NCBI GenBank assembly: GCA_025923195.1
Contig: JAICGJ010000052.1
Coordinates: 1 to 32,582 of the forward strand
Reading direction: 5' to 3'
From: Chryseolinea sp.
GTDB taxonomy: Bacteria; Bacteroidota; Bacteroidia; Cytophagales; Cyclobacteriaceae
Length of the DNA: 32,582 nucleotides
The notes beneath the pieces were generated by a model that was not told the DNA's origin, searched no databases, and saw only the letters and a list, made by a program, of their open reading frames with translations. Position numbers and translations under genes: made by a program. This document shows positions 11,614 through 32,582 of this stretch, in pieces (position 1 is the stretch's first letter; the number at the start of each line of letters is the position of its first letter).

Positions 11614-11638
11614 TTGAATTATAAGGCTAGATTACAAA

Positions 11639-11671
11639 ACCGAGATTAGACTGAAATTAGAGGCAAATTAG
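11639..11671. promoter_or_regulatory. Three 11-bp direct repeats, likely response-regulator site
   Basis: Three consecutive units ACCGAGATTAG, ACTGAAATTAG and AGGCAAATTAG repeat with an exact 11-bp period. They fill the 64-bp gap between the histidine kinase stop and the SulP start. OmpR/PhoB-family regulators bind direct repeats of this spacing, and such a regulator is encoded just upstream, so the array is probably its target at the SulP promoter. Confidence 0.6.
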
Positions 11672-11677
11672 AAACAC

Positions 11678-13060
11678 CTAAGAATCAGGGTCTGGCCATT
11701 CAATATCCTCTGCCAGCGGAAGACTAATGGTTACCGTGGTGCCCTCATTCAACACCGACTTGACATCGAATATACCCTTATGAATTTCAATAATCCGTAA
11801 CGTCAGAGGAATGCCAATTCCTGTGCCTACAATTTGACGCACATTCTCCGCCCTGAAAAAAGGCTGCGTGATTTTAGGGATATCATCTGGCGGAATACCA
11901 ACACCGGCATCCGTGACCCGTATTACGACCATATCATCTTTGATACTGAAGTCTATATCAACCACGTTATCCGACGAAAACTTGCTGGCGTTGTCGTAAA
12001 TATTTATCAGCGCCGTCTCCAGCAAGTTCTTGTTACCATAAATGAAGGCTTCCGATTTCGTAGGACGGGTAATTAAATCAAGTCTTAATTGATTATTGGG
12101 ATTTAATAAATCATACTTTTTTCTGGCATCCTGAACGAGGGCTTTTGGGTCTATATTTTCCCGTTTGATGTCCATTGCCCCGTAGCTGATAGAGGACAGC
12201 TGAAACAGATTATTTACTAACAAATGGAGCCTGTCAGCTTCCAATGAAATGTTTCTTAGCGACTCTTTATAATCGTCCAGTGAACGATCCTTGGTCAACG
12301 CCACTTCCGTCTCTCCTAATATGGCCGTTAAAGGATTTCGGATCTCATGAGAGGCATTTGCGACAAATAGCTTCTGCATATTAAATGCTCCTTCCAGCCG
12401 ATCCAGAAGTTTATTAAAGGCAATAGCCATTTCTCCTAATTCATCGTCTGGATTAAAGACATTCAAGCGTTCGTGCAAATTACTTCCACTAATCGTATTT
12501 GCTTTATGGATTTTTTTTGAAATCGGCCAAATCAATCGTTTCGAAATGTAGTAACTCAAAATCGAAACAACGATGATCGCTCCCATGATACTCAGTGTGA
12601 TAATTGTGCGCAGGTTCCTTAGAACCCTCATGCCTACTTTATCAACGGCCGTTATTATTACGGCATAATTGCCTTCTCTTAAATGAAAAACACGTCCTGC
12701 TCCCTGTATGGTGTCACTATAAAAGTAGGTCTCTTCACGATCAATAAGTGATTCCAAGAAGTCGGCAGGGTATTTGTTTTTTAGATTGTCCTGCCAACCT
12801 GGAGATAGCTCTGCCACTTCTTCGGTTTCATCCGGCAGGGTATTAACAAATTGATCACGGATCTTTATGTAATCAACTTCAGAAAAGGTTGACCTTTCAA
12901 GAAAAAATTTCTCAGCGATATCTACCCTGGTCCTTAACCTTTGGAAGAATTCATTCTTCCTGTATTGCGCCGAAAAGTAAAAGACAGATATGCCAAAGGC
13001 AAGAATGATCAATGCCGAGGCCATACTGAAATACAAAGTTAATTTATGCCGTATCTTCAC
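11678..13060 (-). CDS. Sensor histidine kinase
   Basis: This 460-residue membrane kinase senses a signal outside the cytoplasm and phosphorylates the response regulator encoded immediately upstream. Domains in order are an N-terminal membrane helix (about 8-30), a periplasmic domain (about 31-150), a second helix (about 151-173) and a HAMP domain. Then come HisKA with the H-box NASHEIRNPLTA (phosphorylated H238) and HATPase_c with the N-box NIYDNASKF and the G-boxes DAGVGIP and GTGIGIPL. The GTG start at 13060 places MKIRHKLTL at the N-terminus and overlaps the regulator gene by 17 bases, so the two are translationally coupled. The signal is unknown; the adjacent anion transporter suggests an anion- or ion-related cue. 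Confidence 0.93.
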   Translation of the reverse strand: MKIRHKLTLYFSMASALIILAFGISVFYFSAQYRKNEFFQRLRTRVDIAEKFFLERSTFSEVDYIKIRDQFVNTLPDETEEVAELSPGWQDNLKNKYPADFLESLIDREETYFYSDTIQGAGRVFHLREGNYAVIITAVDKVGMRVLRNLRTIITLSIMGAIIVVSILSYYISKRLIWPISKKIHKANTISGSNLHERLNVFNPDDELGEMAIAFNKLLDRLEGAFNMQKLFVANASHEIRNPLTAILGETEVALTKDRSLDDYKESLRNISLEADRLHLLVNNLFQLSSISYGAMDIKRENIDPKALVQDARKKYDLLNPNNQLRLDLITRPTKSEAFIYGNKNLLETALINIYDNASKFSSDNVVDIDFSIKDDMVVIRVTDAGVGIPPDDIPKITQPFFRAENVRQIVGTGIGIPLTLRIIEIHKGIFDVKSVLNEGTTVTISLPLAEDIEWPDPDS

Positions 13061-18235: not shown

Positions 18236-21200
18236 CTACCTGGCTAGCGCCAGCCCTGCCGTGTTTTTTGTATCTGCATCAGTGACAAAGATTCTAAGTT
18301 TATCATTATTGATACCCAAAACAATAGACCATTGGCCCTTTGTCATGATCGCCTGCATATCCTTTACGTTGTAAGGAACGAAAAATCCGCTTTCCAATGG
18401 TTTCATACATTTGAATTCAAGGCCTCCCATTCCCTTCATGAACAGACCCGGGGACGCGTCGGCTGGAGTCGTCTCCACTTCGACGTCAAATTTGTTCCCC
18501 GCCAGCAACACATCCTTCTTGCCATCGTTATCAAAGTCTTTCACCAGGATCGAGTTTACGGATGAAAGTTGCGCATCCGTCGGCAGTTTCTTGATAGTGA
18601 ATTTGCCGCCGTCGTTGATCAGCATAATACTTGAAAAAAGGTGAGCCTTTTTGTGTATCGCATTCTCAATATCCTTACCCAAAATTGTTGGAAGATCTGA
18701 TTGCGCAAATGAAAGATAAGTAGGAAACTTCTGTGCTATCGTGGGCAATTGCTGAGACGTACATTCTCTTCCGCGTATAGGGACCAGCTGGTTGCCCTTG
18801 TAATACCGGGCGAGAAATATATCGTTGGTTCCATTGCTGTCAAAGTCCTTGGCATAAACCTGAAATGGTTTTTCGCTTGTCGCCTTGAACTTATAGTTTT
18901 CACCTATATTCCCCACAATGAGATCCTGGTCACCGTCTTCATCCAGATCGTCAGCAACTACCCTGTTCCACCACCCTTCTGTTTTTTCAGTCAATAACTC
19001 GTTCGAGATGTCTTGAAAACTGCCCTGCTTATTTTGGAATATTTTTATCGGCATCCATTCTCCAACAACAATTAGTTCCGCGGAAGAATCTCCATTCAGA
19101 TCAGCCCATACAGCTGAATTAACCATGCCTACCTCTGAGAGTCCTTTGGATAACTCATTTGTTTTGTCGATGAGCGTTCCATTGTCATTAATAAACAGGT
19201 AACTCTGGGGAGCCTTTGGATATTCACCAGCTACCACCTGTCCACCTCTGAATAAATCGAAATCACCATCGCCATCGACATCATAGGGAGCGATACACGA
19301 CCCACTGCTCACCGTTTTAGGAGAATTTGTCTTCTTAAAATTCCCGGTCCCATCGTTAATATATAGTCTATCAGAATACAAATCAGATCCCTGCCTGAAT
19401 TCACTTCCACCACTGACTACATACAGATCAAGGTCGTTGTCACCGTCTACATCGAATAGCGCTGAACCGACATCTTCAAATTTCTTATCTTTTTCGAAGT
19501 CAGCGATCGACTTCCTGATAAACCTGCCGCTTTGTTGTAAAAACAATTGGCCTGCCTGTCCTGCTGCACCACCAACATAAAAATCCTCCTCTCCATCGGA
19601 ATTTACATCACCCCCTGAAATAAATGGGCCGCTCCTTGAAAACATATGGGGGAGCAAGACTTGATCCTTATATTCATTCACCTCGTTCTCCCGGTGCACA
19701 AACCCATTAGCCAGGAGATTGCCAGTAGACTCCTTAAATAGTTTTCCCGATGTCGATTTCTTTGGAGTTCCATGGACAGACTTACTATAGTCCACCACTA
19801 GCAATTTGTTTATGTCGACCTGACTCAACACATTTTTCTTTCCCCCAGGCCATTCCACTTTCAGGCTGTCAATTTTTTCGGCCTGGCCCAACCCGAAATG
19901 AACGATCGGCTCGTTGGACGAAAGGTATCCCCGAACAGTTTTGTTTTCGAAATATTGCATTTTGCCTTGCGTATAGACTGTCACCTTCGCACCAATTCCA
20001 TCCTTATTTCCGGCAGGGCCCTTCAATTGTACTTTTACGTAATTACTTCTGGCGGCAGAAGAATTTTCATACAGGAATGCATCTTCGTCCAGGTTATTAA
20101 TAACAAGATCCAGATCTCCATCGTTGTCCAAGTCACCCACAGCCGCTCCGTTAGAAAAGCTTTCCTCATTGAACCCCCACGCATCACCAACATTTTCAAA
20201 CTGCAGGTCGCCCTTATTCTTGAACAGATAGTTTTTCACTTTGATAGGATTATAAATATTTATAAAATCTTTAAAACCTTTCTCCATCATTTCCTGCGGA
20301 GAGCGATACTTATTCATGTTAGCCCGTACGTATGCACTTAACTTTCGTTGCGCATCGCCGTCGAACACATCGCGCTTATAACCGTTTGCCACGAATATGT
20401 CGCGGTTACCATCATTATCAAAATCTGATAACAAACATGACCAGCTCCATTCTGTCTTTGCGACACCGGAAAGTTGAGAGATCTCACTAAAAAAAAGATT
20501 GCCCTGATTCAGGTGCAAAGCGTTGTGCATGTATTGCCTATGCATGCCGCTGTTGACAATCTCATAAAACCCCTCGACGTCCATAGACGGCATAGATACC
20601 TTCGATCTCTGGTAATCTTCCGGCAGCATTTCACTGACGAAGATGTCTTCGAGTCCGTCGTTATTAATATCAGCCACATCCGTTCCCATGGAATACATCG
20701 ATATGTGGTTTGTTGCGCTCTTAATTTGCTCCTTGAACGTGCCGTTTCCCTGATTGATGTACATGTAATCACTTTCCGCAAAATCATTAGCAACAAAAAT
20801 ATCTGTAAAGCCATCGTTATTCAGATCAGATGTAACGACACTCAGTGCATAGCCAAAATTGCTGGTTATACCTGCCTTAAGCCCGATCTCTTTGAATTTT
20901 CCCTGCTCATTAACATATAGCTTATCCCGGCTCGCAGCAGGTGAAAGTTTTTTCTGACGCACCATTTGCGTCAAAGGCAGATCAAACGAATCGGGCCGAT
21001 TAGTAACGTACAGGTCCAGGTCATTATCATTATCCATGTCAAAAAAAGAAGCATGTATGGAATACCCAGACTCATCAATTCCATATTCATGCGCCGCTTC
21101 CTTAAATGTTAAGTCACCCTGATTAATATAGAGAAGATTTTTCCGTTGGTCGGCCGTCTCCTGCCATCCCCCTTTACACACATAGATATCCAGGAATCCA

Positions 21201-21619
21201 TCCCCGTTTACGTCTGCCATAACAACACCATTGTTCCACCTTCCATTTCCTTCGACTCCGGCAGCTTTTGAGATGTCTTTGAATTTTAAATTGCCTTCGT
21301 TCAGGTATAATTTGTTTGGCACCTCGTTGCCCGTAAAATAAATGTCTGACAAACCATCGTTATTGATATCACCAATACCAACACCCCCGCCGTTGTATAC
21401 ATACGCAAAGACGTCGAAGAAATTGTTGATGTTCTCCTCTACCTTGTTTCGAAAAGCCAGTCCGCTATGTGACGCGTCGACGCGTTTGAAGACAGGGTCC
21501 ACGGCAGCAACTACGACTTTTTCTTCCGAATTTTTCACAGCCTTCTGATCACATCCTAAAAGAAGCAACAGGGTTACAAAAAATACTGTTTGAAGGGTTG
21601 TAGTTATTCGTTTTTGCAT
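18236..21619 (-). CDS. VCBS/FG-GAP repeat lipoprotein with ASPIC/UnbV domain
   Basis: This 1127-residue surface or periplasmic lipoprotein has a lipobox in LLLLGCDQ (lipidated C23). It contains a long series of FG-GAP/VCBS repeats with calcium-binding loops such as [36 protein letters not shown] and [12 protein letters not shown], which should fold as one or two beta-propellers. Between the repeat blocks, at about residues 540-605, lies an ASPIC/UnbV-like segment ([15 protein letters not shown] to KVEWPGGK). Family members in Bacteroidota recur next to SusC/SusD pairs and may bind glycans or proteins at the surface. The precise role is unknown. It is coupled to the DUF255 gene downstream, and a heptad array lies in its leader. 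Confidence 0.9.
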
Positions 21620-21631
21620 AGGTTGATGTTG

Positions 21632-21708
21632 GGTGTAAAGGTATAAGGTATAGGGTATAAGGTATAAGGTGTAAGGTGTAAGGCATAAGGTGTAATGCGT
21701 AAGGCAGG
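21632..21708 (+). repeat. Heptanucleotide array A, unit near GGTRTAA
   Basis: Units such as GGTATAA and GGTGTAA follow one another. From 21640 to 21702 nine 7-base units run without a phase break. It lies 13 bases upstream of the VCBS gene start and reads GGTATAA on the plus strand. Single-base variants (GGCATAA, GGTATAG, TGCGTAA) indicate drift after expansion. It forms an inverted pair with array B. Confidence 0.85.
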
Positions 21709-21741
21709 CAAGGAGATCGTTGCTCTTCCCTACACATTATT

Positions 21742-21780
21742 CTATATACCTTATTCCATATACCTTATACCCTATCCCTC
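21742..21780 (-). repeat. Heptanucleotide array B, inverted relative to array A
   Basis: On the minus strand the segment reads as 7-base units GGTATAA, GGTATAT and GGAATAA. It begins one base beyond the stop codon of the four-helix-bundle gene. A perfect 17-base stretch, 21759-21775, is the inverse of 21650-21666 in array A, so the two arrays can pair in DNA or RNA. Confidence 0.8.
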
Positions 21781-21781
21781 T

Positions 21782-22195
21782 TCATCCATTTGGCTTGTCC
21801 ATTCTTGCCTGAACAAATTTAATATATCCATTCAAGGTTATCTTAGCATTTTCGATTAAAGAAATTCCTTTTGTAAGAATGTCCTTACCGATGAAACCAA
21901 GATCATAACAGGAGGTGAGATGATCCTTTAATTCGTACATAGAACCTCGCGACATACGATAAAACTGAATTCCTTCCTGGTAATGATAGCGGCCATATCC
22001 CTCCGAAATATTGGCAGTGATGCTGATGCTCGCCCTGCGTATTTGATCGCCAAGATTAAATTTTTCTTCGATGGGAAGTTTCGGAATCACTTCCCCATAG
22101 AAAAAAAGCTTGACCATTCTTGCCTTCTTCCAAGCTTCAAGAGTTATAAAATCCCTACTCTGGTCATAGTGTGTCAATATACGTTCCATTTTCAT
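21782..22195 (-). CDS. Four-helix-bundle protein (S23 / 23S rRNA-IVP family)
   Basis: From ATG 22195 the product is 137 residues; a TTG at 22210 would add five residues. It matches the four-helix-bundle family named for proteins encoded in intervening sequences of some 23S rRNA genes, and related to the Avd accessory protein of diversity-generating retroelements. Signature parts are LEAWKKARMVKLFFYGEVIP, LGDQIRRASISITANISEGY and YRMSRGSMYELKDHL. Members are basic nucleic-acid-associated helper proteins of mostly unknown function. There is no reverse transcriptase or rRNA gene nearby. The gene is bracketed by heptad arrays (21742-21780 and 22233-22290), which suggests that the gene and arrays travel together as a cassette inserted between the haloperoxidase and VCBS genes. 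Confidence 0.9.
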   Translation of the reverse strand: MKMERILTHYDQSRDFITLEAWKKARMVKLFFYGEVIPKLPIEEKFNLGDQIRRASISITANISEGYGRYHYQEGIQFYRMSRGSMYELKDHLTSCYDLGFIGKDILTKGISLIENAKITLNGYIKFVQARMDKPNG

Positions 22196-22232
22196 CCGGC
22201 TAACGTTCAATAAAAAACTTCGGCTAACGGTA

Positions 22233-22290
22233 CTATACCTTATTACCCCTATACCCCCGTACCTTATACCCTACACCTTACACCCTACCT
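22233..22290 (-). repeat. Heptanucleotide array C, overlaps the haloperoxidase stop
   Basis: On the minus strand the units run GTGTAAG, GTGTAGG, GTATAAG, GTACGGG with small phase slips. The array lies upstream of the four-helix-bundle gene and reaches into the 3' end of the haloperoxidase gene, whose final codons GGT-AGG-TAG are part of the array. Confidence 0.8.
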
Positions 22291-23736
22291 ACCCCCCACA
22301 TGATCCAAATACTTCTTCCATACTGCTTGCGCCACCTGACGTCCCAACTTCAATCCTTCAACATTATCTGATTGGATATGATAACCTCCGAGCACACGCG
22401 ATATACCCGCCATATTGGCTGTCTCCGTAAAGGTTGGAAATTTCAGTACAACAGTATCACCAAGGTTTTCAGGTTCGGTTAGTAAACCCGGTACCAGTTT
22501 GACTTCTTCACCAAACTGATCGCTTCCGGTAAAAAGTCTCAGTGCTTCAGAACACGCAGCGCTCACACAGCTGTGGCCCGAGACGTAGCTTGGAAACGGC
22601 GGACATAAGAAAGTCTCCGGAGAGTAGGGTCTCCACTCCTTTCCCTTCACCTGAATAATTCCTTTTTCCGGCCCTGCCCAAGCTTTGATCACTTGCTCTT
22701 TGTAATATTCGTGGACTAAAGCAAAAGGTCTTGCGAAATCATAATACATTTTTGCATCCCAGGCAGCAATGAACGCATCCATCGCTGAAGTCTCAACAAG
22801 AAAATACATTTTAACGTCGTCGTCTAATGTATGCTTATCCCTGACAGAAACATTTTGCGCAAAAATGAACCAGTGTCCTGCTTGCTGAACAGACTTTGGT
22901 CCATCGCGCATAAATTCTACAAGCGCGCGTTGCTCATCGGTAAGATTTGCCTGCATGTCTACTACTTCTTTGACCTCGGCAACAAGCTGCGCCGAACCAA
23001 TGGCGGGCGGCGGACCAGGTCTGAATTGCGAAGCGGAATCAAGAGCAACAGGCTTCACGTTATTCCAATGGGGCGTCAGACAGCCTGGCGCGAATTTGCC
23101 GCCTTTCCCATCTGAAAAATATTTTGGCTGCCATCTGCTGACGTCGTTCAAGTTATCGGCACTGTTTATTGGTGTATATCCTGTGTAATCAGCATAGCGT
23201 GTACCGTTAGAGTTAGGCATCGTTCCGCTTTCATTTGCACCATCTGAGCTCCGGGCGGCGATGACAGCTTTTGCTGCTAAGTTGCCAATGCCTTCTGGGG
23301 TATTGGGATCAAGCGAGGTATTATCCGGGTCGAACCCAAAGTCAACCATTTTCTGTCGCAGCATTGTTGAATCAGAAAAATAATACTCGAGCATCGTCCT
23401 GTAAGCGGCGTAGCTGATTGCTATCTCTTTGTTTTTTAAGGTACGGTCGCCTGGCGCCTGTCTTTCAACAGAAGTAAGATAGAGCGGTACGGCCTTTTCA
23501 TCGTAACGGCTCCACGCATCAAAGATGGATATCCAAATCAAAGCCAAGATCCGTGACGTAACGGTTGGCCTGGGCTTAAAATTTTCGGTATCGTTTGCTG
23601 TGCACTCCAGTGAAATTTTCCCCCATTTAAAGGCCATATTATTTTCCCCTACCGGCTCACTGACGTTGCGTGGCCTGGTACAGGATTGAGTAAATAAAAA
23701 CAGTACAAGAAATAAGTATTGCAGTACTTTAATCAT
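22285..23736 (-). CDS. Vanadium-dependent haloperoxidase / PAP2 family lipoprotein
   Basis: This 483-residue lipoprotein (lipobox in LFTQSC, C19) carries all three PAP2/vanadium-haloperoxidase signatures in order. They are K-x6-RP (K329 to R336-P337, in WDAKMYYDFARPF), the SGH motif (S386-H388, in FPSYVSGHSC) and SR-x5-H-x3-D (S446, R447, H453, D457, in SRVLGGYHIQSD). These residues bind vanadate or phosphate, so the protein may oxidise halides with hydrogen peroxide or act as an acid phosphatase; sequence alone does not decide. Its size is closer to haloperoxidases than to lipid phosphatases. The C-terminus (HVGGR) and stop lie inside a heptad array, so the native end may have been replaced. 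A promoter-like box sits about 66 bases upstream. Confidence 0.9.
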   Translation of the reverse strand: MIKVLQYLFLVLFLFTQSCTRPRNVSEPVGENNMAFKWGKISLECTANDTENFKPRPTVTSRILALIWISIFDAWSRYDEKAVPLYLTSVERQAPGDRTLKNKEIAISYAAYRTMLEYYFSDSTMLRQKMVDFGFDPDNTSLDPNTPEGIGNLAAKAVIAARSSDGANESGTMPNSNGTRYADYTGYTPINSADNLNDVSRWQPKYFSDGKGGKFAPGCLTPHWNNVKPVALDSASQFRPGPPPAIGSAQLVAEVKEVVDMQANLTDEQRALVEFMRDGPKSVQQAGHWFIFAQNVSVRDKHTLDDDVKMYFLVETSAMDAFIAAWDAKMYYDFARPFALVHEYYKEQVIKAWAGPEKGIIQVKGKEWRPYSPETFLCPPFPSYVSGHSCVSAACSEALRLFTGSDQFGEEVKLVPGLLTEPENLGDTVVLKFPTFTETANMAGISRVLGGYHIQSDNVEGLKLGRQVAQAVWKKYLDHVGGR

Positions 23737-23825: not shown

Positions 23826-23864
23826 GGGGTAAGGGTATAAGGTATAAGGTGTAAGGGTACAGGG
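23826..23864 (+). repeat. Heptanucleotide array D
   Basis: The plus strand reads GGGGTAA, GGGTATA, AGGTATA, AGGTGTA and AGGGTAC in one 7-base phase. It lies between the susD terminator and the haloperoxidase promoter box. Confidence 0.8.
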
Positions 23865-24020: not shown

Positions 24021-25844
24021 CTAGTAGCCCTCATTCTGAGGATATCCTCCAAGGGTTCTGTCACTCTGTGCTTGAGGTATTGGTCGATGAATATGGAAAT
24101 CTTTGATATTAGCCGCTCCTGCTAAGGTTCCGCCGACGTGGGCTTGAGCGTTATACAGCGTTACGCGCTCTACCAATTTTCCAGTTCTGGCCAGATCGAA
24201 CCATCGCATTTGCTCCGCGTCCATTTCAAATGCGCGTTCCAGCAGGATGCGATCAATGGTCACATCACCAGCGGTGATCTGCATTTCAGCCACTTTGCCA
24301 GGTTTTGCAGCTCTTGTTCTAACCACATTGATATCTTCCGCCGCGCCGGCATTGTTACCACTGTTGTGTCGTGCTTCGGCGCGAAGCAAATAAGCATCCG
24401 CCAATCTCATAACAAACCAATCGCGGGATCCCTGTTCATGTTGAATCGCAGGCCTTCTGGGATCGAAGAATTTAGCGATCGTGGGGAATAACCTTTCATT
24501 GTAGAAGAATGGGTCCGAAGGATAATAGTTAGGATCTGACGTGGGCAGCGTGCTTGCCGGATAAGATGCTTTTTGTTGCGTGATCACCGTGTACCTCACC
24601 TTAAGTTTTTCATCACCTAACCATTTTGCATCCTGTCCAGGACCGGGTATAAAGAGGGCGGTATCACCAAGCTCAAACCGTCTCTTGCCGACATCTGCGG
24701 CAGTAACAAGGGAGCCATCCGCCTTTTTCGCGCCTTTGTCTACGTGGACTTGTTTCCAGAGCGGGATGCTATTTCCTGAGGTTCGATTGTCATTGCAATA
24801 CCAAACGTGTTTGTAAGTATCCTCGTAACGCTGATCATTAGGACGTGCTGCGGCCCACTGGTCGATCATGTAGTCCGTAAGTCTAAAGCGCTTAAACGGC
24901 CGTCCGTTTGCGATGTCGCGAATCATACCCGGCTGAATATCGTATTCCATCCCAAAGTATAAGTGACCGCGATTTCCAACCCCTGTTCCACCGTTTAAAA
25001 TCAGGTCAGTGGAATATTGAATAGCCCATATAACTTCGCTATTCAATTGATTGTCTTGATTCCACAGATCCTTGTGAGAAGGCAGCAGCGCAAAGCTGTA
25101 ATCCTCAATAACATTTCCGAGAAGATCCTCGGCCTGCACGAAATCATTCGCACTTCCGAAAGCTTGGTAGCCTCTGGTCAAGTAGACCTGACCTAACAGA
25201 AATTCGGCAGCTGGTTTTGTCGCCCGGCCGTATTGGCTTTGAGATGCTGGCAAATTCGCGATAGCAAATTCAAGGTCAGGGATAATACCGTCGGCATAGA
25301 TAGTTGACTGCGCTGTCTTGTTAGCCGTTACTTCAGGTTCCAATGTCTCTTCGAGACTGAAATGCACGTCGCCCCAGGTGCGCACCAGATAAAAATAGTA
25401 GAAGGCACGCAAGAACCGCATTTCAGCAATGCGTATAGTTCTCGTAGCGTCGTTTATTCCAACCACCTCGGGAGCTCGTTGGATGATCGCATTTGTCTGG
25501 TTAATGCCTTGGTATAGGAAGGTCCAGGACTCAAGCAGAATCCCGGCACCGGGATTTAGACCGTTATCGTAATAGTTAAACGATTTCCAGCCACCATCCG
25601 CTCCATTCGTATGCGTATCCGTGCCAAATATTGTCAAGCTATAAGCCCGTTCATTGCTATAAATTTCCCGAAGGAAGGAATATGCGGCATCCGCGCCATC
25701 TTCCAAGCCTGCCGGTGTTGAATAATAACTGCCTGCGGCAACGCCTGAAACTAACTGTTCATCGAGGTAATCCTTGCAGGACTGCGCACTCAACGCTACC
25801 AGGGTGATCGCCATTAATATTGATTTTGTGATTTTCATCTTCAT
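24021..25844 (-). CDS. SusD/RagB family surface glycan-binding lipoprotein
   Basis: This 607-residue lipoprotein has a signal peptide ending in LSAQSC (C23). It shows the SusD/RagB pattern: an early DYLDEQLVSG segment, TPAGLEDGADAAYSFLREIY, the helical RFLRAFYYFYLVRTWGDV, and the C-terminal helix RILLERAFEMDAEQMRWFDLARTG. SusD proteins cap the SusC channel on the cell surface and hand over oligosaccharides. It ends 23 bases downstream of the susC stop, and the pair is closed by a hairpin terminator. Gene context (rhamnosidase, mutarotase) suggests rhamnose-containing glycans. The name is by family; no experimental substrate is implied. Confidence 0.95.
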   Translation of the reverse strand: MKMKITKSILMAITLVALSAQSCKDYLDEQLVSGVAAGSYYSTPAGLEDGADAAYSFLREIYSNERAYSLTIFGTDTHTNGADGGWKSFNYYDNGLNPGAGILLESWTFLYQGINQTNAIIQRAPEVVGINDATRTIRIAEMRFLRAFYYFYLVRTWGDVHFSLEETLEPEVTANKTAQSTIYADGIIPDLEFAIANLPASQSQYGRATKPAAEFLLGQVYLTRGYQAFGSANDFVQAEDLLGNVIEDYSFALLPSHKDLWNQDNQLNSEVIWAIQYSTDLILNGGTGVGNRGHLYFGMEYDIQPGMIRDIANGRPFKRFRLTDYMIDQWAAARPNDQRYEDTYKHVWYCNDNRTSGNSIPLWKQVHVDKGAKKADGSLVTAADVGKRRFELGDTALFIPGPGQDAKWLGDEKLKVRYTVITQQKASYPASTLPTSDPNYYPSDPFFYNERLFPTIAKFFDPRRPAIQHEQGSRDWFVMRLADAYLLRAEARHNSGNNAGAAEDINVVRTRAAKPGKVAEMQITAGDVTIDRILLERAFEMDAEQMRWFDLARTGKLVERVTLYNAQAHVGGTLAGAANIKDFHIHRPIPQAQSDRTLGGYPQNEGY

Positions 25845-25867
25845 GATCTTTCCAATTTATATGTTGA

Positions 25868-28800
25868 TTAGAAGGATATATTTATACCACCCAGGAATAG
25901 CCTGTTAGAAGGCATCGCTCCGGAATTGACATTGCCCGCTCTTTCAGGATCGAATAATTTATAGTCCGACCATGTTACAGGGTTTTGGGCAGTCACAAAG
26001 AGTCTGAGTTTTGTCATCTTCATTTTGCTGGAAATACTCGCGGGAAGCTCATAGCCTAACGTGATGTTGCGAATTTTTACAAAGCCACCGTCCATATAAT
26101 TGAGGGAAGAACCGTACGTAATGTTTTCCTGGTTCTTATTAGGCCTTGGATAGGCATTGGTCGGGTTATCAATCGTCCAATAGTCAACATCGAGATTGTT
26201 ATATCTTCCCTGCATCGTGGCCTGGCCATTGCTGAACTCACTATTGATCATGAAACCGAGCCTGTAGAACAAGAATATTGATAGATCAAAACCTTTGAAC
26301 TTAAACTTGTTGGTAAAGCCCCCGTAGGCCTTGGGAACATCATTGCCAAGCACTTTTCGGTCATCATTAAGGGTGATCCTCCCATCACCATTCAGATCCT
26401 CGATCTTGATCTCACCCGGGAATTGTCCGAATCCTGCGGCCGCATCTTTTTCTTCGACCTGCCAGATTCCAAGTTTATTATAATCGTAAAAGACTCTGAC
26501 AGGTTGGCCAATGAACCAGCCATTGCCAACGTCGTCAACCAATTCCCCATTGGGCCCGCGTTGGGCAAGGTCTACAATTTTCTCTTTCAGACTTCCAAAG
26601 TTAAATTCCGCCTCCCATTTCAAACCGTCTGGCTTGTCGACAACGACGGCATTGAGGGTGATTTCAAAGCCCTTTGTCTCTGTACCACCGACATTTTGCA
26701 AAATGAACGAGTAGCCCGAAGTTGGTGGCAGCTGACGGTTCAAGAGCAGCGACGTACCTGTGGACGTACTGTAAACATCAACATACCCGTTTAATCTGCC
26801 ATTGAAAAACGCAAAGTCAATTCCCGCATCAAAAGATTCAGAATACTCCCAACTCAGGTTTGGGCTCTGGATAAGGTCAAGTCTAAATCCTTTTGCGTCT
26901 ACGTTATTCCAATCATAAAACGTATTTGCAAGGGTACCTTGCGTTTGATAAGGCGCCACTGCTGTATTACCCACTTTGCCATAGGATGCTCTTAATTTCA
27001 ATTCGGTTACTGCGGTGAGGTCAGCCATAAACCCTTCGTCTTTTATTCTCCAACCCACCGACACACCTGGGAAGCTATTCCACTTGTTGCCTTCAGCTAG
27101 GCGGGAGGAACCGTCCCATCTCATGCTCGCCTGAAACAAATACTTGCCCTTATACGAATAGTTGATGCGAGCCATGTACGACAGCAACTGAAACTCTGCG
27201 AAGTTTGTCATGTTTGAGGTGAGCGTGCCTAACCCAAGGTTATACCATTTCATATGTTCGTATGGCAGATTTTGCGCACCCATGAAGCTCTCAGTGAACT
27301 CCTGTTCGGCCGCACTTTGCAACCCTGTGAGTCCGATACTATGTTCTCCGAAGGACTTGTTATACGTGATGATATTTTCCAGTGTATAACCCGATTGCTC
27401 TCCTTGATAAAAGGATGCAAAAGGTGAACCGTTCTTCCGCGTATTGGTGAATTGTCCCTCAAAAATACCACGGTCTAACGTCCACAAGTCCTGACCTAAT
27501 AGAAATTTATATTTAAGCCCTTCAATAATATTGACATCAAGGTAAACGGAGTTAAAGAACCGTTTGTATTTGCGTTCATCGATGCGTTTGCCGGGCACCA
27601 ATTCGGACAATGGATTGGACCGGATACCATCTGATATCGGCAAAAAGATAATATTGCCTTCCTCATCATAAGGCAGTCCCAGAGGAGTCTGATTCACTGC
27701 CTCCGAGATCACAGATGCGGACCCAAAATTATCTGTGATGTTCGAATAGAGGGTAGATACACCGACCTTAAACATTTTACTGATCTCGTGGTCCACGTTA
27801 ATACGTCCCGTGTAACGTTTGTAATCGACGCCTTCTATGAGCCCATCTTCCTGAAAGTTGCTAAACGCAACGAATATCCGGGTCTTTTCTGTTCCTGCCC
27901 GAATGCTCAGCTGGTTATTTAATTGGGATCCGTTTTGATAGATCAAATCCTGCCAGTCTGTTGACAAGTTATTTTGTACAGAATTGAGTTCAACTGCGTC
28001 ATTAAAAACGACCGCATCATCAGGTATTGATGAACCTACATCACCCCAGGCAGCGCGTCCAGACTGACCGTTTGCTGCAACCCGGTTGGCTTCACGCTTA
28101 AGTTGTGCGAACTGCGATCCATTCATCATGGGAATAGTCCTGAACGCTTCAGAAATACCATAAGTGGTGGTAAAATTCACCTCAGTGACGCCGGGGCGGC
28201 CTCTTTTAGTTGTAACAAGGATTACCCCGTTGGATCCTCTCGATCCATAGACTGCCTGAGACGCGGCATCCTTGAGTACTTCAACGGATTCGATATCGGC
28301 AGTATTAAAATCAGCAATTGTATTTGTACCCGCTGTCATTGGAATTCCATCGATAACGAATAGCGGGTCGTTGCTCGCGGTAAGGGATCTCCTTCCCCTA
28401 ATCCTAATCGTGGGAGCTTCTCCCGGCCGACCTCCATTTTGTAAAACATCCACGCCGGCAATTTGGCCCTTCATGGCATCCATGGCGTTAGGCGTAGGTA
28501 TTTGTGCAATAGCCTCACCGGTAACAGTGGAAATTGAGGAAGTAACGTCTCTTTTTTCCTGAGTACCGTAACCGACTACGATGACTTCCGAGAGTTCGGA
28601 GACATCAGCAACCATTCCCACATCAATTGTCGTTCTGTTATTAATAGGCTGCTCTTGGGCGGCATAACCAATAAATGAAAAGACGAGTGTGCCATTAACC
28701 TGGTCGCCTGTGAGATTCAGCCTGTATTGGCCTTCGGCATCAGTGGTTGTTCCGTTAGAAGTGCCTTTTACAATGACGTTTACACCCGGCATGCCTTGAC

Positions 28801-28954
28801 CGGCTTCGTCGGTAACTTTTCCAGTTACGGTCTGCGCTTGCAGAAAGGCTGCGTCTTCGAGGCTCCCGACGGGAGAAATTAGATCTTTTGAATAGCCACA
28901 CACAGATAAAGTGCACAACGCTATCCAGCATACATGTAGTAGTACTCTTCGCAT
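25868..28954 (-). CDS. SusC/RagA family TonB-linked outer-membrane receptor
   Basis: This 1028-residue receptor imports oligosaccharides across the outer membrane using TonB energy. It has a signal peptide (MRRVLLHVCWIALCTLSVCG), then a carboxypeptidase-regulatory-like domain (VTGKVTDEAGQGMPGVNVIV to SFIGYAAQE, about residues 43-110). A TonB-box-like stretch VIVVGYGTQEKRD and a plug domain (AMKGQIAGVDVLQNGGRPGE to PLFVIDGIPM) follow, and then the beta-barrel ending in LFLGGINISF. The length is normal for the family. It is co-directional with susD. Its 416-base leader holds a perfect 24-base palindrome, so sugar-responsive repression is likely. Confidence 0.95.
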   Translation of the reverse strand: MRRVLLHVCWIALCTLSVCGYSKDLISPVGSLEDAAFLQAQTVTGKVTDEAGQGMPGVNVIVKGTSNGTTTDAEGQYRLNLTGDQVNGTLVFSFIGYAAQEQPINNRTTIDVGMVADVSELSEVIVVGYGTQEKRDVTSSISTVTGEAIAQIPTPNAMDAMKGQIAGVDVLQNGGRPGEAPTIRIRGRRSLTASNDPLFVIDGIPMTAGTNTIADFNTADIESVEVLKDAASQAVYGSRGSNGVILVTTKRGRPGVTEVNFTTTYGISEAFRTIPMMNGSQFAQLKREANRVAANGQSGRAAWGDVGSSIPDDAVVFNDAVELNSVQNNLSTDWQDLIYQNGSQLNNQLSIRAGTEKTRIFVAFSNFQEDGLIEGVDYKRYTGRINVDHEISKMFKVGVSTLYSNITDNFGSASVISEAVNQTPLGLPYDEEGNIIFLPISDGIRSNPLSELVPGKRIDERKYKRFFNSVYLDVNIIEGLKYKFLLGQDLWTLDRGIFEGQFTNTRKNGSPFASFYQGEQSGYTLENIITYNKSFGEHSIGLTGLQSAAEQEFTESFMGAQNLPYEHMKWYNLGLGTLTSNMTNFAEFQLLSYMARINYSYKGKYLFQASMRWDGSSRLAEGNKWNSFPGVSVGWRIKDEGFMADLTAVTELKLRASYGKVGNTAVAPYQTQGTLANTFYDWNNVDAKGFRLDLIQSPNLSWEYSESFDAGIDFAFFNGRLNGYVDVYSTSTGTSLLLNRQLPPTSGYSFILQNVGGTETKGFEITLNAVVVDKPDGLKWEAEFNFGSLKEKIVDLAQRGPNGELVDDVGNGWFIGQPVRVFYDYNKLGIWQVEEKDAAAGFGQFPGEIKIEDLNGDGRITLNDDRKVLGNDVPKAYGGFTNKFKFKGFDLSIFLFYRLGFMINSEFSNGQATMQGRYNNLDVDYWTIDNPTNAYPRPNKNQENITYGSSLNYMDGGFVKIRNITLGYELPASISSKMKMTKLRLFVTAQNPVTWSDYKLFDPERAGNVNSGAMPSNRLFLGGINISF

Positions 28955-29181
28955 ATTGTTAGGGGTTAGGGAATATTAAAATTTAATGGGCGTAGGAATC
29001 ACCGGGATCTTGTCAGATAGATCCTGTTACCTCTTCATTGTTGCTCAATCAAAAACATCCAAATGGTTTTTGCGACGGAATGAGCTGGTTTGCGAGAGAA
29101 AATAAGCACGGGGGCTCGGCTTTGTTTTAGTAAAGTGTAGTGCATAGGTTGAGGTTTTGGGTTTTAAAATTTGGCTTCAAA

Positions 29182-29205
29182 AATTGCGCAATCGATTGCG
29201 CAATT
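29182..29205. promoter_or_regulatory. 24-bp perfect palindrome, LacI-family-type operator
   Basis: The half-site AATTGCGCAATC (29182-29193) is followed at once by its exact reverse complement, giving 24 bases of perfect dyad symmetry. The centre AATCGATT fits the AAnCGnTT core of LacI/GalR-family operators. It lies 228 bases upstream of the susC start and next to a near-consensus -7 box (TACTTTTA at 29210-29217, minus strand). No LacI-family gene is in the window. Confidence 0.75.
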
Positions 29206-29337
29206 AAAGTAAAAGTATCGTTTATAAAGCAAATACTATCCTGTACTGTCCTTGCATATGGTGATATGACTCGTAACACGCAGGTTATCAATAAGTTATA
29301 GACGGTAAAAAAATGCCGTAAACGGTGCCGGTGACGG

Positions 29338-29352
29338 TTGCGCTATCGATTA
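29338..29352. promoter_or_regulatory. Partial second copy of the susC operator
   Basis: TTGCGCTATCGATTA matches the operator's TTGCGCAATCGATTG at 13 of 15 positions, 154 bases away. It lies between the rhamnosidase stop and the main palindrome and lacks the right half-site's GCGCAA. It may be an auxiliary site or a decayed duplicate. Confidence 0.35.
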
Positions 29353-29370
29353 CCCATTTCGGCCTTATTA

Positions 29371-32316
29371 TTATTTGGATTGTCTGACTTCCCCAGCCAG
29401 TGGTATTAAAATCACGGGGCCCATCAACCCAGAGGGTCTCGGCTGCCAGTGTCTGGCATCAAACAAGCCGTTATTACGGTTCTCGGATTTTCGCGCAGGA
29501 AAATTGACGTTGTAGAATTTTTTCCAGAATATTTGATGCTTGTCCAGGTAGGCGATATGATTGGCCATCAGGTTGACCACCTTGACTTCAAGTGTGTTTG
29601 TGTTTTGTAACAAGGTGTCCGGCACGTGGACGCGGTACATAGGTCCCAATAGGATTCCCATCGACTTTCCGTTAAGAATTACCTCGGCACTCTCTTTCAC
29701 ATTACCGAGATCAAGGATCCAACGCGAAGTCTTTTGCCTTGGCTTTTCGAAAGTGGTCCGATAAGTCGCTGATCCGGAAAATGATCGATACACTGGATTC
29801 GCAAATGTTGTCCATGAGGCCAAGACATTTATCGTTTGATCCGGTGGCAATTCCGGTCCCCCCTGGTCAAAGGAAATTTGCCATGGACCTGATATGTCTA
29901 ACGGATTGCCTATACTTTCATGATAAGGATAAGAAACGCCATCGCGCCTGTCGGGCGATACTTCCACAATAAGAGTCTCCGCGGGTTGCATCTGCAATCG
30001 AACCTCGAGTTTCCCGTGGACTGATTCACGAGTTTCGCCCATCCCGACGTCGCCTGTCATGGGGTTGTACAAAATCGCTGACTTACCCATTATCCCCAGT
30101 GGTGTCCAACCGTCAAAACCCTTGTCATTATTTTGAATGAAATAAAGGGTTGAGTTGTCCTGCCCTTTTTTCCTCAGGAATTGCAACCCGGAATCCACCA
30201 TCTTTTCCCGCCTTGCCGACGTATTATCTAAAAGCAATTCAAGATCGCTTCCCATCAACAACTTGCCTTGTCCTATTTTCGTTTCGGTTGCTTTCTCCAA
30301 TTGTGAAGGCTTGATTTTCTCTATCAAACTATCGAACAACTTTATGTTTTCCTCCATGTTAGCGTGTCCGTTAACCGATGAGGGGATACCTTCATAGAAC
30401 ACGACGGTTGCGCCACTTTCGGCCAATGACAAGATCTTTCGCAATGTTGCGACCGGAATATATTTGCACTGAGGTATCACGACCGTTCTGTACCGTCTCT
30501 TGCCTTCTGTTACCAGGTCTCCGTTTTCGAAGTTTGTCTGTCCAAGCTGCTTGTCAGAGATGTAATCAAACGCATATCCATCAGCCAGCATCTTTTCTGA
30601 CGCGCGTTTAAATGCTGTATTTTCGAATTGGGGACCAACAGCATCGAAATGTTCGATCATTTCTTCACCAGGTGTGGAAAACCGGTCGTAAATCGGATAA
30701 TAAAGCAGCACATCATTGTCGGGGACAGAGTTTTGTAACAGCGACTGCGACCTTTCAACGTATTTATTCAATGCCCCGAAATGCGGCCACAGTGAATTTC
30801 GCGGATTCAGATGGACAGCGGCGTAGAACAACCAACCGGGCCACGGTTCTCCTGGTGGAGAATAGCAGGTGCCATGGTAAAATATATGGTTAACACCGTG
30901 CAGCATGAACCGGTCAACCGCCGTCTTAATATCCGAAAGGCTAGACTCAAAATGTTCATTAAGCCAGGTAGCAGATTCCGATGATATCAATTTCTTTCCG
31001 GTAACATTACCCGCAGAAGTGGCCATCTTGATACGGAGCGGCTCGACACCCTCGATTTCCGGTATATCGACCGTTGCATAGAGGTCCAGAATATTTGAGG
31101 GCGAGCCATGCGCCTGATTTCTGACCAATGCATTCTTTCCATGTGCCCATTTTTTCCATCGAAACGTAAAATTTTCCAGCACCAACTCTGAAATTGTCTC
31201 CCTGTAATCACACAAAACCCTCTCGTTCCTGTCGGGCACATCCTGTGCGAATAAAGCGGGGAGATGCGCCCTCAGATCGTAACCTCTCATCTTCTTAAAT
31301 TCTTCAAACAGCAAAGGCGTCCAGTCAGCATTGCCCCGGGCATCATCAACTTCATAGGAATCATTGAAGAAAGCCCGGAGTGAACTCAGGTCATAGTTTT
31401 CAAATGCTTTGTCGAAACGGGCGAGATAGTTCGCTAAGGCCGGCGCGGAAAAATGATCCATTACATTCCCTTCGCCACCGGGTCCTGCCCGTTCAACCAT
31501 CTTACCATGCCATCCCATAAACACCGCGTACAACCTCCAACTACCTTCCGGGGCAACCCAATCCAACATTCCATCTTTGTTCACCTTGGTCGTGAGGTCA
31601 AGCACCTTTCCCGAGTTGCTGTAAGCCATAAGGGCCTGCAGAGGCAGTTGCTTTCTAAACTTTACCTGGTCGAGTGCAAGCGCTTGCAAATTCTTGTTAG
31701 CAGCCACGGGTTCCACCAGATGATCTATACGAATTTCGCCTTTGCCTGACCGTAACGGTTCTTTCAATGTGCCAATTGCAGCTTCTTTGGTAATGGTAGT
31801 ATCGTGAACTTCATACACCTGGTTTCCAACTGCCCTAATATAGGGTTCCTGGATAAAGACTATTTTCTCCTTCAGACTTTCGCCAGCCTTTAATGCATAA
31901 CTTTTATACTCCAAGTTTTTACAGGCGTCGATATTGTCAACCCATGGGCCACCGAATGGCCATCCCGTCCCAGTAGCCATGTCGATACCCATATCCAGTC
32001 GTTCTGCTTCTTTCAGCGTATGTACCAATAGCTCCATCCATTGCGGAGTCAAGTAATCGACAAATTGCTTTTCCTTTCCATAAACACCATATATGGGAGT
32101 AATCTCTAGTCCACCGAGTCCCGCCTTCTTATAGGCCTCCATTTCAGCGGTGAGACCCTCCTTTGTTACCGCGCTCCCGTGCCACCACCAGCGCGACCAA
32201 GGCTTTGTCTCCCGATTTGCAGCGGGCCATTCAAGCTTTTTTGACTGCCCGACCACTGGAATTGGTACAGAAGCGGAAGTAAGGGTGATAGCAAATATGA
32301 GGTGAAGAAGTCTCAT
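29371..32316 (-). CDS. GH106-type alpha-L-rhamnosidase, secreted
   Basis: This 981-residue enzyme should release terminal alpha-L-rhamnose from plant or microbial polysaccharides. It has a signal peptide (cleavage near PIPVVGQ) and the family opening SRWWWHGSAVTKEGL with GLGGLEITPIYG (about residues 42-81). It also shows MGIDMATGTGWPFGGPW and a central ESATWLNEHFESSLSDIK. The C-terminal beta-sandwich domain is of the type found in GH2 enzymes (RWILDLGNVKESAEVILNGK to VVNLMANHIAYLD). The size is near that expected for the family. The specificity is supported by the L-rhamnose mutarotase gene upstream and the SusCD pair downstream; catalytic glutamates were not assigned by eye. A heptad array lies a few bases upstream of the start. 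Confidence 0.85.
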   Translation of the reverse strand: MRLLHLIFAITLTSASVPIPVVGQSKKLEWPAANRETKPWSRWWWHGSAVTKEGLTAEMEAYKKAGLGGLEITPIYGVYGKEKQFVDYLTPQWMELLVHTLKEAERLDMGIDMATGTGWPFGGPWVDNIDACKNLEYKSYALKAGESLKEKIVFIQEPYIRAVGNQVYEVHDTTITKEAAIGTLKEPLRSGKGEIRIDHLVEPVAANKNLQALALDQVKFRKQLPLQALMAYSNSGKVLDLTTKVNKDGMLDWVAPEGSWRLYAVFMGWHGKMVERAGPGGEGNVMDHFSAPALANYLARFDKAFENYDLSSLRAFFNDSYEVDDARGNADWTPLLFEEFKKMRGYDLRAHLPALFAQDVPDRNERVLCDYRETISELVLENFTFRWKKWAHGKNALVRNQAHGSPSNILDLYATVDIPEIEGVEPLRIKMATSAGNVTGKKLISSESATWLNEHFESSLSDIKTAVDRFMLHGVNHIFYHGTCYSPPGEPWPGWLFYAAVHLNPRNSLWPHFGALNKYVERSQSLLQNSVPDNDVLLYYPIYDRFSTPGEEMIEHFDAVGPQFENTAFKRASEKMLADGYAFDYISDKQLGQTNFENGDLVTEGKRRYRTVVIPQCKYIPVATLRKILSLAESGATVVFYEGIPSSVNGHANMEENIKLFDSLIEKIKPSQLEKATETKIGQGKLLMGSDLELLLDNTSARREKMVDSGLQFLRKKGQDNSTLYFIQNNDKGFDGWTPLGIMGKSAILYNPMTGDVGMGETRESVHGKLEVRLQMQPAETLIVEVSPDRRDGVSYPYHESIGNPLDISGPWQISFDQGGPELPPDQTINVLASWTTFANPVYRSFSGSATYRTTFEKPRQKTSRWILDLGNVKESAEVILNGKSMGILLGPMYRVHVPDTLLQNTNTLEVKVVNLMANHIAYLDKHQIFWKKFYNVNFPARKSENRNNGLFDARHWQPRPSGLMGPVILIPLAGEVRQSK

Positions 32317-32323
32317 GTGTCGA

Positions 32324-32370
32324 GTATAAGGTGTGGATATGAGGTGTAGGGTGTAAGGTGTAAGGTGTAG
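32324..32370 (+). repeat. Heptanucleotide array E
   Basis: The plus strand reads GTATAAG, GTGTGGA, then after a six-base slip GTGTAGG, GTGTAAG and GTGTAAG. It begins seven bases upstream of the rhamnosidase start, in the same orientation as arrays A and D. Confidence 0.8.
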
Positions 32371-32396
32371 TGGCGCCCAGCTCGGATAACCTTCAT

Positions 32397-32431
32397 CTGT
32401 AAGCTGTACGCTGTACGCTGTAAGCTTTGAG
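32397..32431 (+). repeat. Heptanucleotide array F with a different unit
   Basis: Five 7-base units, CTGTAAG, CTGTACG, CTGTACG, CTGTAAG and CTTTGAG, end exactly at the stop codon of the mutarotase gene. The period is the same as in arrays A-E, but the unit (GCTGTAC) is different. Confidence 0.75.
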
Positions 32432-32582
32432 CTATTCCAATCTAAACACTTCCCTCAACGGTACGGATACTGGCGAATGATCAGGATTCGTCTCCATTAT
32501 ATCCTCCATGTATTTCCACCATTCCTGAACTACATCGTGCTGTGCGAGTTGCTGCGAACCCGCACTTTCATTTGTCTTTTGA
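32432..32582 (-). CDS. rhaM: L-rhamnose mutarotase, 3' end only
   Basis: The last 49 codons of a minus-strand gene run off the right edge; the stop is at 32432-32434. The peptide includes [17 protein letters not shown] and closes with PLREVFRLE, which I recognise as the C-terminus of L-rhamnose mutarotases. These enzymes interconvert the alpha and beta anomers of L-rhamnose before isomerisation. About half of the protein (usually 104-115 residues) is missing because of the window edge, not because of a defect. It is co-directional with the rhamnosidase gene and 115 bases upstream of it. The peptide is short, so confidence is below that of full-length calls. Confidence 0.8.

Follow-up and report, generated by a model that had tools for sequence, protein, structure and literature searches.

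The locus described here raises the question of why a small S23/IVP gene should stand between two host genes, enclosed by tandem arrays of a 7-base repeat. It lies in a 32,582-nucleotide stretch of Chryseolinea sp. DNA (Bacteroidota; Cyclobacteriaceae; assembly GCA_025923195.1, contig JAICGJ010000052.1, positions 1 to 32,582), hereafter the window, whose genome is designated G000 and whose same-genus relatives are designated G001 to G005. We consider it probable that gene and arrays together make up a small, hairpin-forming mobile cassette placed between operon genes, with the structure (U)n - S23 - (rcU)n, U being a 7-base unit (8-base in a minority) belonging to that particular S23 lineage. 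An initial annotation made from the window alone had suggested a possibly mobile cassette or a repeat-binding system; the comparisons below support that suggestion, and we infer movement from presence and absence at orthologous junctions and from the joint travel of repeat and gene.

The S23 gene and its arms in the window

The identification of the gene as S23/IVP is borne out by its matches to PF05635 (E 3.6e-25; 88.7 bits against a curated cut-off of 33.8) and TIGR02436 (E 6.9e-23; 80.9 bits against 24). The protein is related to the solved chain 2GSC (E 6e-8), and a profile of 19 S23 sequences run against PDB sequences also recovered 2RLD beside it; both structures contain five chains. The haloperoxidase-type gene, the S23 gene and the FG-GAP gene are all on the minus strand, and the cassette is laid out among them as follows:

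21782 to 22195, minus strand: S23/IVP four-helix-bundle gene, 138 residues plus stop from the ATG (a TTG start is also possible at 22210)
22285 to 23736, minus strand: upstream host gene, vanadium haloperoxidase/PAP2-type protein (PF22778, PF01569, PF21167)
18236 to 21619, minus strand: downstream host gene, FG-GAP/ASPIC-UnbV repeat protein (PF13517, PF07593)
21620 to 22284, minus strand: extra segment of about 665 bp between the two host genes, skipped by blastn alignments to L119 and L120
22230 to 22291, minus strand: array C, the upstream arm, GGTGTAA/GGTATAA on the S23 sense strand, beginning at the haloperoxidase stop codon (lag-7 score 20/28)
21726 to 21779, minus strand: array B, the inner downstream array, oriented as upstream arm C and partly pairing with array A in the predicted fold
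21632 to 21706, plus strand: array A, the outer downstream arm, inverted relative to C and B, with a 27-bp predicted pairing with C

The arrays had been described as directly adjoining the gene on both sides. This is true of array B, which starts 2 bp after the stop codon, but some 38 bp separate the end of array C from the ATG at 22195. Scored for period 7, the arrays span 21632/21638-21706 (A), 21726/21745-21779 (B) and about 22233-22288 (C). The pattern GGTRTAAGGTRTAA, allowing up to three mismatches, occurs 33 times in the window, where 6.7 occurrences would be expected and none of 100 shuffles gives as many as 33. Its 19 matches with at most two mismatches are confined to 21640-22284, 23834-23854 and 32343-32370, and the left half of the window contains three isolated 3-mismatch matches only, in agreement with the earlier observation that the heptad recurs in other gaps of the locus but not in the left half. 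When 21620-22300 is folded as minus-strand RNA, the predicted energy is -213.7 kcal/mol (z score -5.4; 0 of 20 shuffles as stable), with a stem of 27 unbroken pairs between C (22286-22260) and A (21638-21664). No rRNA was detected by Rfam in the window (0 matches at the gathering threshold) or in ten own-genome stretches holding other S23 genes, which gave five tRNAs and a SAM riboswitch only.

Period-7 arms as a property of S23 lineages

In a whole-genome search, G000 yielded 13 S23 matches, which represent 11 whole genes and a further gene split in two, and S23 was present in 32 of the 39 genomes searched, G000 included. Two sets of loci were compared. The first comprises stretches around S23 genes of G000 and its relatives, with weak or unlisted S23 matches left out, and the second the best 80 of 581 confirmed loci from a separate contig collection, found with one pattern built from seven Bacteroidota sequences; because at least four of these seven come from the fadB–fadA junction, that junction is over-sampled in the 80-locus set. 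The 159 S23 entries (79 and 80) were reduced to 146, the others being too near a contig end or shorter than 300 bp, and to 145 once an exact duplicate (L133 = L062) was dropped.

Next to the S23 domain in the first set, 6.0% of bases within 100 bp and 4.3% of those from 100 to 200 bp belong to period-7 arrays, against 0.07-0.27% in the bins past 400 bp; the separate 80-locus set gives 7.0% near S23 versus at most 0.23% far from it. Periods 5, 6, 9 and 11 remain at or below 0.17% in every near bin, period 14 mirrors period 7, and period 8 is weakly raised (1.3%). Under a more sensitive score (at least 20/28 at lag 7, or lag 8, in a 200-bp flank), a period-7 flank was found at 79 of 145 S23 genes (34/73 and 45/72 in the two sets) and a period-8 flank at 11 others, 90 of 145 together. 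The same lag-7 threshold was reached by 20 of 274 other genes lying more than 1.5 kb away in the S23 stretches (Fisher p 1.4e-26 against S23), by 0 of 26 GxxExxY genes (from 30 loci) and by 1 of 20 small GIY-YIG genes (from 22 small-gene loci, after 8 of 30 loci with an open frame of about 600 residues had been excluded). Period-7 or period-8 arrays are far commoner beside S23 genes than beside other genes. The gene-repeat association first noticed in the window holds well beyond it; what the initial annotation missed is that the heptad is a property of the S23 lineage rather than one sequence, together with the inversion of the arms, the co-directional position in operon gaps and the travelling of the repeat with the gene.

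By eye, nine of the 11 whole S23 genes of G000 have arms, and the score calls six of ten testable genes at period 7 and two at period 8. Arms of period 8 rather than 7 were seen in a minority of loci (L043 at 11413-11802, L044, L092, L099 and, by eye, L344), and the S23 copy at metH–metF retains octads in both G000 and G004. Near arrays also accompany S23 genes at loci titled Ignavibacteriae, Treponema, Nitrospirae, Alphaproteobacteria, Clostridia and Syntrophus; most of these are metagenome bins, in which labels may be mistaken. Ten of 39 matched plasmid records were opened (eight cyanobacterial, one Azospirillum and one Gemmatirosa); the lag-7 threshold was reached on at least one flank in eight of them, namely seven of the eight cyanobacterial loci and that of Azospirillum, and at the Gemmatirosa locus the repeat has a different short period (8 by eye). 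One S23 query gave no tblastn match in 50,697 phage records.

The unit varies by locus and includes GGTRTAA, ACAGCTT, GTTTGAA, CCGTTAT and GGTAAGT, among others. In 37 two-armed loci, the arms match as reverse complements at six or more of seven positions in 21 (mismatched loci, 3.3%) and directly in 6 (mismatched loci, 0.9%). In an independent alignment, the upstream flank against the reverse-complemented downstream flank reaches at least 18 in 63 of 146 loci, compared to 1.5% of 723 mismatched pairs. The downstream array is thus mostly the reverse complement of the upstream one, which gives the cassette its form. The arms are also biased relative to the S23 sense strand (58 arms each), with 25% G and 10% C upstream and 26% C and 8% G downstream. 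Some flanks are themselves hairpins (L127 and L129, by eye), and at a few loci the 3' end of the S23 frame extends into the downstream array (by eye). Two other explanations of the arms were considered and found unsupported. Insertion of the gene into a pre-existing array would give direct flanks, a minority against the inverted ones at two-armed loci, and retention of heptads as a source of stops in all frames would be reflected in the upstream-arm units, of which 41 of 58 contain a stop against 37.9 expected from shuffled units.

Sequence comparison further indicates that the unit moves with the gene. Among 34 pairs of S23 genes at least 62% identical but with unrelated neighbours, units share a mean of 4.9 of 7 positions, against 3.83 (standard deviation 0.18) when permuted, with 0 of 2000 permutations reaching the observed value; for S23 genes below 50% identity with different neighbours, unit sharing is no higher than background. 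The GAGATNT lineage, for example, is found at fadB–fadA (L126, L128), fadA–fadE (L067, L135, L141), sdhA–sdhB (L127), before an sdhB-like gene (L147) and between GNAT and amino-acid kinase genes (L129). The 30 S23 proteins from fadB–fadA require 15 changes on a quick tree (at least 22, mean 27.7, in 200 label shuffles), and their grouping as one clade is rejected by the approximately unbiased (AU) test (p 0.0015); S23 has entered this gap on more than one occasion. Some heptads resemble the end of the upstream gene (by eye), and seeding of the unit by the host was considered; it was dropped as the main explanation, since units are common to closely related S23 genes at different sites.

The two arms of a cassette change together. 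In a comparison of 502 pairs of loci at orthologous sites, drawn from 52 loci, arm similarity for S23 proteins below 50% identity is 17.5 within a locus versus 9.4 across loci (within greater in 221/224). At 50-60% identity the values are 17.2 and 10.6 (198/205) and at 60-75% they are 19.2 and 16.9 (26/34), while at 75% identity or more within and cross comparisons do not differ (18/39). Because the match within a locus exceeds that across orthologs, the unit drifts while complementarity of the arms is kept, either by selection for pairing or by the correction of one arm by the other.

Operon gaps, empty junctions and gene-free arrays

With neighbours taken from simple open reading frame (ORF) picking, 143 of the 145 S23 genes had a called neighbour on both sides. 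S23 lies between two parallel genes in 129 of these and is co-directional with both in 119, in comparison with 106 and 81 of 166 control genes of 90-220 residues; given parallel flanks, co-direction is also commoner for S23 (119/129) than for controls (81/106; p 8e-4). The occupied junctions of G000 are, by NCBIfam names, argC–argD, pyrG–yidC, nuoF–nuoG, trpE–trpG and two beside metH parts and metF. Elsewhere, Pfam names identify fadB–fadA (3-hydroxyacyl-CoA dehydrogenase and thiolase, L126), fadA–fadE (thiolase and acyl-CoA dehydrogenase, L067), the succinate dehydrogenase flavoprotein and iron-sulphur genes (L127) and GNAT–amino-acid kinase (L129), and at L147 the downstream iron-sulphur neighbour alone was recognised. 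Clustering of neighbours places 29 loci at fadB–fadA and 14 at fadA–fadE.

Annotated junctions on cyanobacterial plasmids are nrdB–nrdA, where S23 is antisense, cas6–cas4 twice and cas10–cmr3, the cas sites lying within CRISPR operons (L338, L339, L340). Both cas6–cas4 copies have heptad arms, one mainly in direct orientation. These examples (L338, L339) suggest that some S23 genes of cas loci are cassettes with heptad arms. The initial annotation held that S23 genes otherwise ride inside rRNA intervening sequences (IVS), which was too narrow a view, since S23 genes in cas loci were already recorded in 2013 in a passage of PMC3936711.

For the haloperoxidase–FG-GAP junction of the window, two genomes of the genus have a clear ortholog (proteins 77% and 75% identical), and both are without the segment, their gaps being shorter than about 30 bp with no S23 match there. 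The segment is therefore not fixed in relatives, which had been the point to check. At other occupied sites of G000, S23 is absent from argC–argD in 5 of 5 relatives and from nuoF–nuoG in 4 of 4 relatives with a match. No whole S23 gene was found at trpE–trpG in 5 of 5 relatives (within the 238-bp gap of G005, a 33-bp stretch matches the S23 region) or at metH–metH in 5 of 5 (gaps of 147-257 bp), and at metH–metF it is present in one relative (G004) and absent in four. In total, 26 orthologous junctions of G001 to G005 contain one whole S23 gene, two short matches and no trace in 23, for which gain in the lineage of the window at most sites is the simplest reading.

Period-7 arrays also occur apart from the cassette in the window, two of them gene-free arrays of its unit and a third of a related unit:

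23826 to 23864, plus strand: gene-free GGTRTAA-type array, upstream of the haloperoxidase gene
32323 to 32372, plus strand: gene-free GGTRTAA-type array, just upstream of the GH106 gene start
32393 to 32433, plus strand: period-7 array of the related unit CTGTAAG, neighbour of the preceding array

Three consecutive GGTRTAA units with at most one mismatch give 28 matches in G000, merging to 11 sites, of which one is the S23 cassette and ten are gene-free; among the relatives, G005 has three sites (6 matches) and G001 to G004 none, and a reversed control pattern gave none. The term "non-autonomous" in the initial annotation suits these gene-free arrays better than it does the S23 copy. In 600 kb of G000, 19 period-7 arrays were found, all of them intergenic by simple ORF calling, compared to one array in total for periods 5, 6 and 8-11. 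These 19 arrays are not independent, as eight of them lie in one operon region; 13 match a cassette unit of G000 at six or more of seven positions (null 24%) and three match exactly (null 0.6%). At L377 (11780-13240), three successive gaps of a nuo-type operon (names from translations) have inverted pairs of CCGTTAT type and no S23; the unit is shared with the nuoF–nuoG cassette, which includes S23 and lies on a different contig, and units drift along an array. Inverted repeat doublets scattered through extragenic space, a feature of REPIN/RAYT systems, are present in G000, although some sites are single arrays. Random stretches from five of the seven S23-null genomes hold 0 period-7 arrays in 400 kb. 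A general correlation of S23 number with genome-wide repeats is not shown by such stretches, with 0 versus 1 array per 400 kb in S23-null and S23-rich genomes and only G000 array-rich.

Several neighbouring observations stand apart from the cassette. Positions 24021-32316 of the window contain a SusC/SusD-like pair beside the GH106 rhamnosidase-type gene, an ordinary polysaccharide-use locus. The GxxExxY genes (PF13366; L206 to L235) have flanking repeats of their own, inverted in 13/26 and direct in 11/26 and not of period 7; by eye, many show a degenerate ACGCAAAG/CACAGAG pattern, and they may mark another small cassette family. Direct repeats flank 13 of 20 small GIY-YIG genes, and at L239, L243 and L251 these look, by eye, like the 3' end of a tRNA, as though a duplicated tRNA end adjoined the gene.

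A proposed hairpin cassette, its rivals and its precedents

The closest precedent for this arrangement is the 23S rRNA IVS, on which basis an intercistronic hairpin cassette is proposed. Such a cassette would occupy the gap between two operon genes and presumably be transcribed with them. Its arms would pair in the polycistronic RNA, giving a long hairpin that has the S23 frame in its loop and the host cistrons outside, and by analogy with the S23-bearing 23S rRNA IVS the stem would probably be cut by RNase III. The arms, whether as RNA or as single-stranded DNA, are probably bound by a pentamer of S23, which together with host enzymes probably helps the hairpin to insert at new operon gaps. 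Gene-free inverted arrays of a cassette's unit would then be its non-autonomous satellites. The protein itself matters, as the ratio of nonsynonymous to synonymous change (dN/dS) in S23 is 0.03-0.09 in nine close pairs (two further comparisons were saturated), which shows purifying selection.

A number of observations weigh against this proposal. The association is incomplete: 55 of the 145 S23 genes reach the threshold at neither period 7 nor period 8, and two S23 genes of G000 near tRNA genes (L045, L046) have no arms. The cassette has no transposase or recombinase, and no reverse transcriptase was found in G000 (0 matches to PF00078). No target-site duplication or excision product was shown. 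At the same-genus sites the DNA is 68-82% identical, too diverged for a base-exact junction. Loss also happens: in the metH–metH gap of G005 (L269), an S23 remnant of 74 bp with 70% identity persists between array-like flanks, decaying in place. Gene-free arrays are common in G000 alone (6 in 200 kb; 19 in 600 kb), and random stretches of five S23-rich relatives hold 1 period-7 array in 400 kb. Ten of the 129 S23 genes between parallel genes are antisense, eight of these with arrays, which makes strictly RNA-guided sense insertion unlikely. ORF picking fails at L043, missing a metH part, so that this locus is scored against co-direction, and the pairs used in the unit-sharing and arm-comparison tests share loci and are not independent. 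Finally, long conservation at fadB–fadA together with the low dN/dS suggests a function beyond selfish spread.

Movement through an RNA intermediate, a candidate prompted by the sense bias, was set aside, being weakened by the antisense copies with arrays and by the absent reverse transcriptase. Of the loci just named, L046 has tRNAs on both sides of the S23 gene within 40 bp, and S23 genes similar in sequence to the armless L045 and L046 copies occur in G001 and G002. At L043 (8620-11400), the second metH part of G000 was not picked as one long frame, possibly through a frameshift or an assembly error.

The joint divergence of unit and S23 protein, the arms that remain matched at orthologous sites, the strong purifying selection on S23 and the five chains of its solved relatives 2GSC and 2RLD would also be expected if S23 were an RNA- or DNA-binding regulator of its own operon or of itself, the heptads its coevolving binding sites, and movement incidental horizontal transfer with the control region. 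The occupied operons are functionally unrelated, however, the junctions of close relatives are mostly without S23, gene-free arrays occur in other gaps, and the inverted geometry exceeds what binding sites need, so that we regard a regulator as rather unlikely. Those gene-free inverted arrays, present at several G000 sites, could instead mean that an inverted heptad hairpin is moved in trans by another enzyme, such as a Y1 tyrosine transposase as in REPIN/RAYT, with S23 simply carried along. G000 does encode four Y1 transposase genes, but period-7 arrays were found at none of the four fetched Y1 loci, the unit tracks S23 relatedness, and random stretches of five S23-null genomes have no arrays in 400 kb, although those of S23-rich relatives have only one; S23 as a passenger seems improbable on this evidence.

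It is also conceivable that any 7-base unit in loosely constrained DNA between cistrons is expanded by replication slippage and by repair templated on hairpins, without any role for S23. In favour, heptameric repeats were noted earlier as over-represented in bacteria (in a passage of PMC4692102), and units drift along an array in the nuo-type operon of L377. We judge this by-product explanation very improbable, given that GxxExxY and GIY-YIG small genes in S23-bearing genomes lack period-7 arrays, that the unit travels with S23 to new sites, and that the arm strand is biased relative to S23.

Heptameric repeats of cyanobacteria are known by the name STRR. GGGAATC and GGGGA(C/T)T heptameric repeats are described in PMC4692102, and a 2015 abstract on TAACTGA repeats (PMC4679880) suspected horizontal spread, "but no mechanism is evident". 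The arrays reported here resemble the simple repeats of those papers in being intergenic tandem heptamers of Bacteroidetes and Cyanobacteria. The main text of PMC4679880 has 0 mentions of S23, IVS, intervening or 23S rRNA, and the text of PMC4692102 has 0 mentions of "intervening" or "four helix", S23 itself not having been searched there. Among the matches listed from open-licence PMC text, we found no report of a link between S23/IVP and heptads.

The 23S rRNA IVS described in a passage of PMC4990558 is 428 nt long, carries its S23 frame within the loop closed by a 28-bp stem, was shown to be excised by RNase III, and is sporadically distributed, with a mobile origin proposed. Our cassettes likewise enclose an S23 frame between terminal inverted repeats, presumably within a longer transcript, and are compact (about 665 bp in the window) and sporadic in distribution. 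Unlike that IVS, they lie between protein genes rather than in a 23S rRNA gene, and their stem is made of tandem 7- or 8-base units belonging to the S23 lineage. They share with REPIN/RAYT, as outlined in part of PMC3116915, short inverted hairpin-capable repeats, extragenic dispersal and a gene-bearing locus for the repeat family, but the linked gene is S23 instead of a Y1 transposase, the repeats are period-7 arrays, and the S23 cassette is itself found at different places. PF05635 is said in a passage of PMC10053308 to resemble Avd, with 2GSC and 4DWL homologous; the profile search of PDB sequences that found 2GSC and 2RLD did not recover Avd, and in contrast to the diversity-generating retroelements of Avd, no reverse transcriptase of PF00078 was found in G000. 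The cassettes are best read as the counterpart, in mRNA operons, of the S23-bearing 23S rRNA IVS.

A broader generalisation, which we advance tentatively and consider doubtful as it stands, is that bacterial heptameric repeats are both generated and spread by S23/IVP proteins. These would then define a class of transposase-less hairpin elements of many phyla, in which the pentamer sets the 7-base register, keeps the arms alike during sequence drift, drives insertion into operon gaps and leaves gene-free satellites, and the 23S rRNA IVS would be the particular instance in which such an element came to lie in rRNA.

These results join two old questions, namely the role of S23/IVP, known from rRNA IVS by 1993 and from cas loci in 2013, and the over-representation of heptamers in many bacteria. 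For annotation, they imply that S23 genes met within operons or cas loci may represent cassettes rather than members of the pathway. If the cassette reading is true, the heptad arms can be used at once to test binding, processing and mobility, and widespread, very small mobile elements would have gone unnoticed in core operons such as nuo, trp, arg, met, sdh, fad, cas and nrd.

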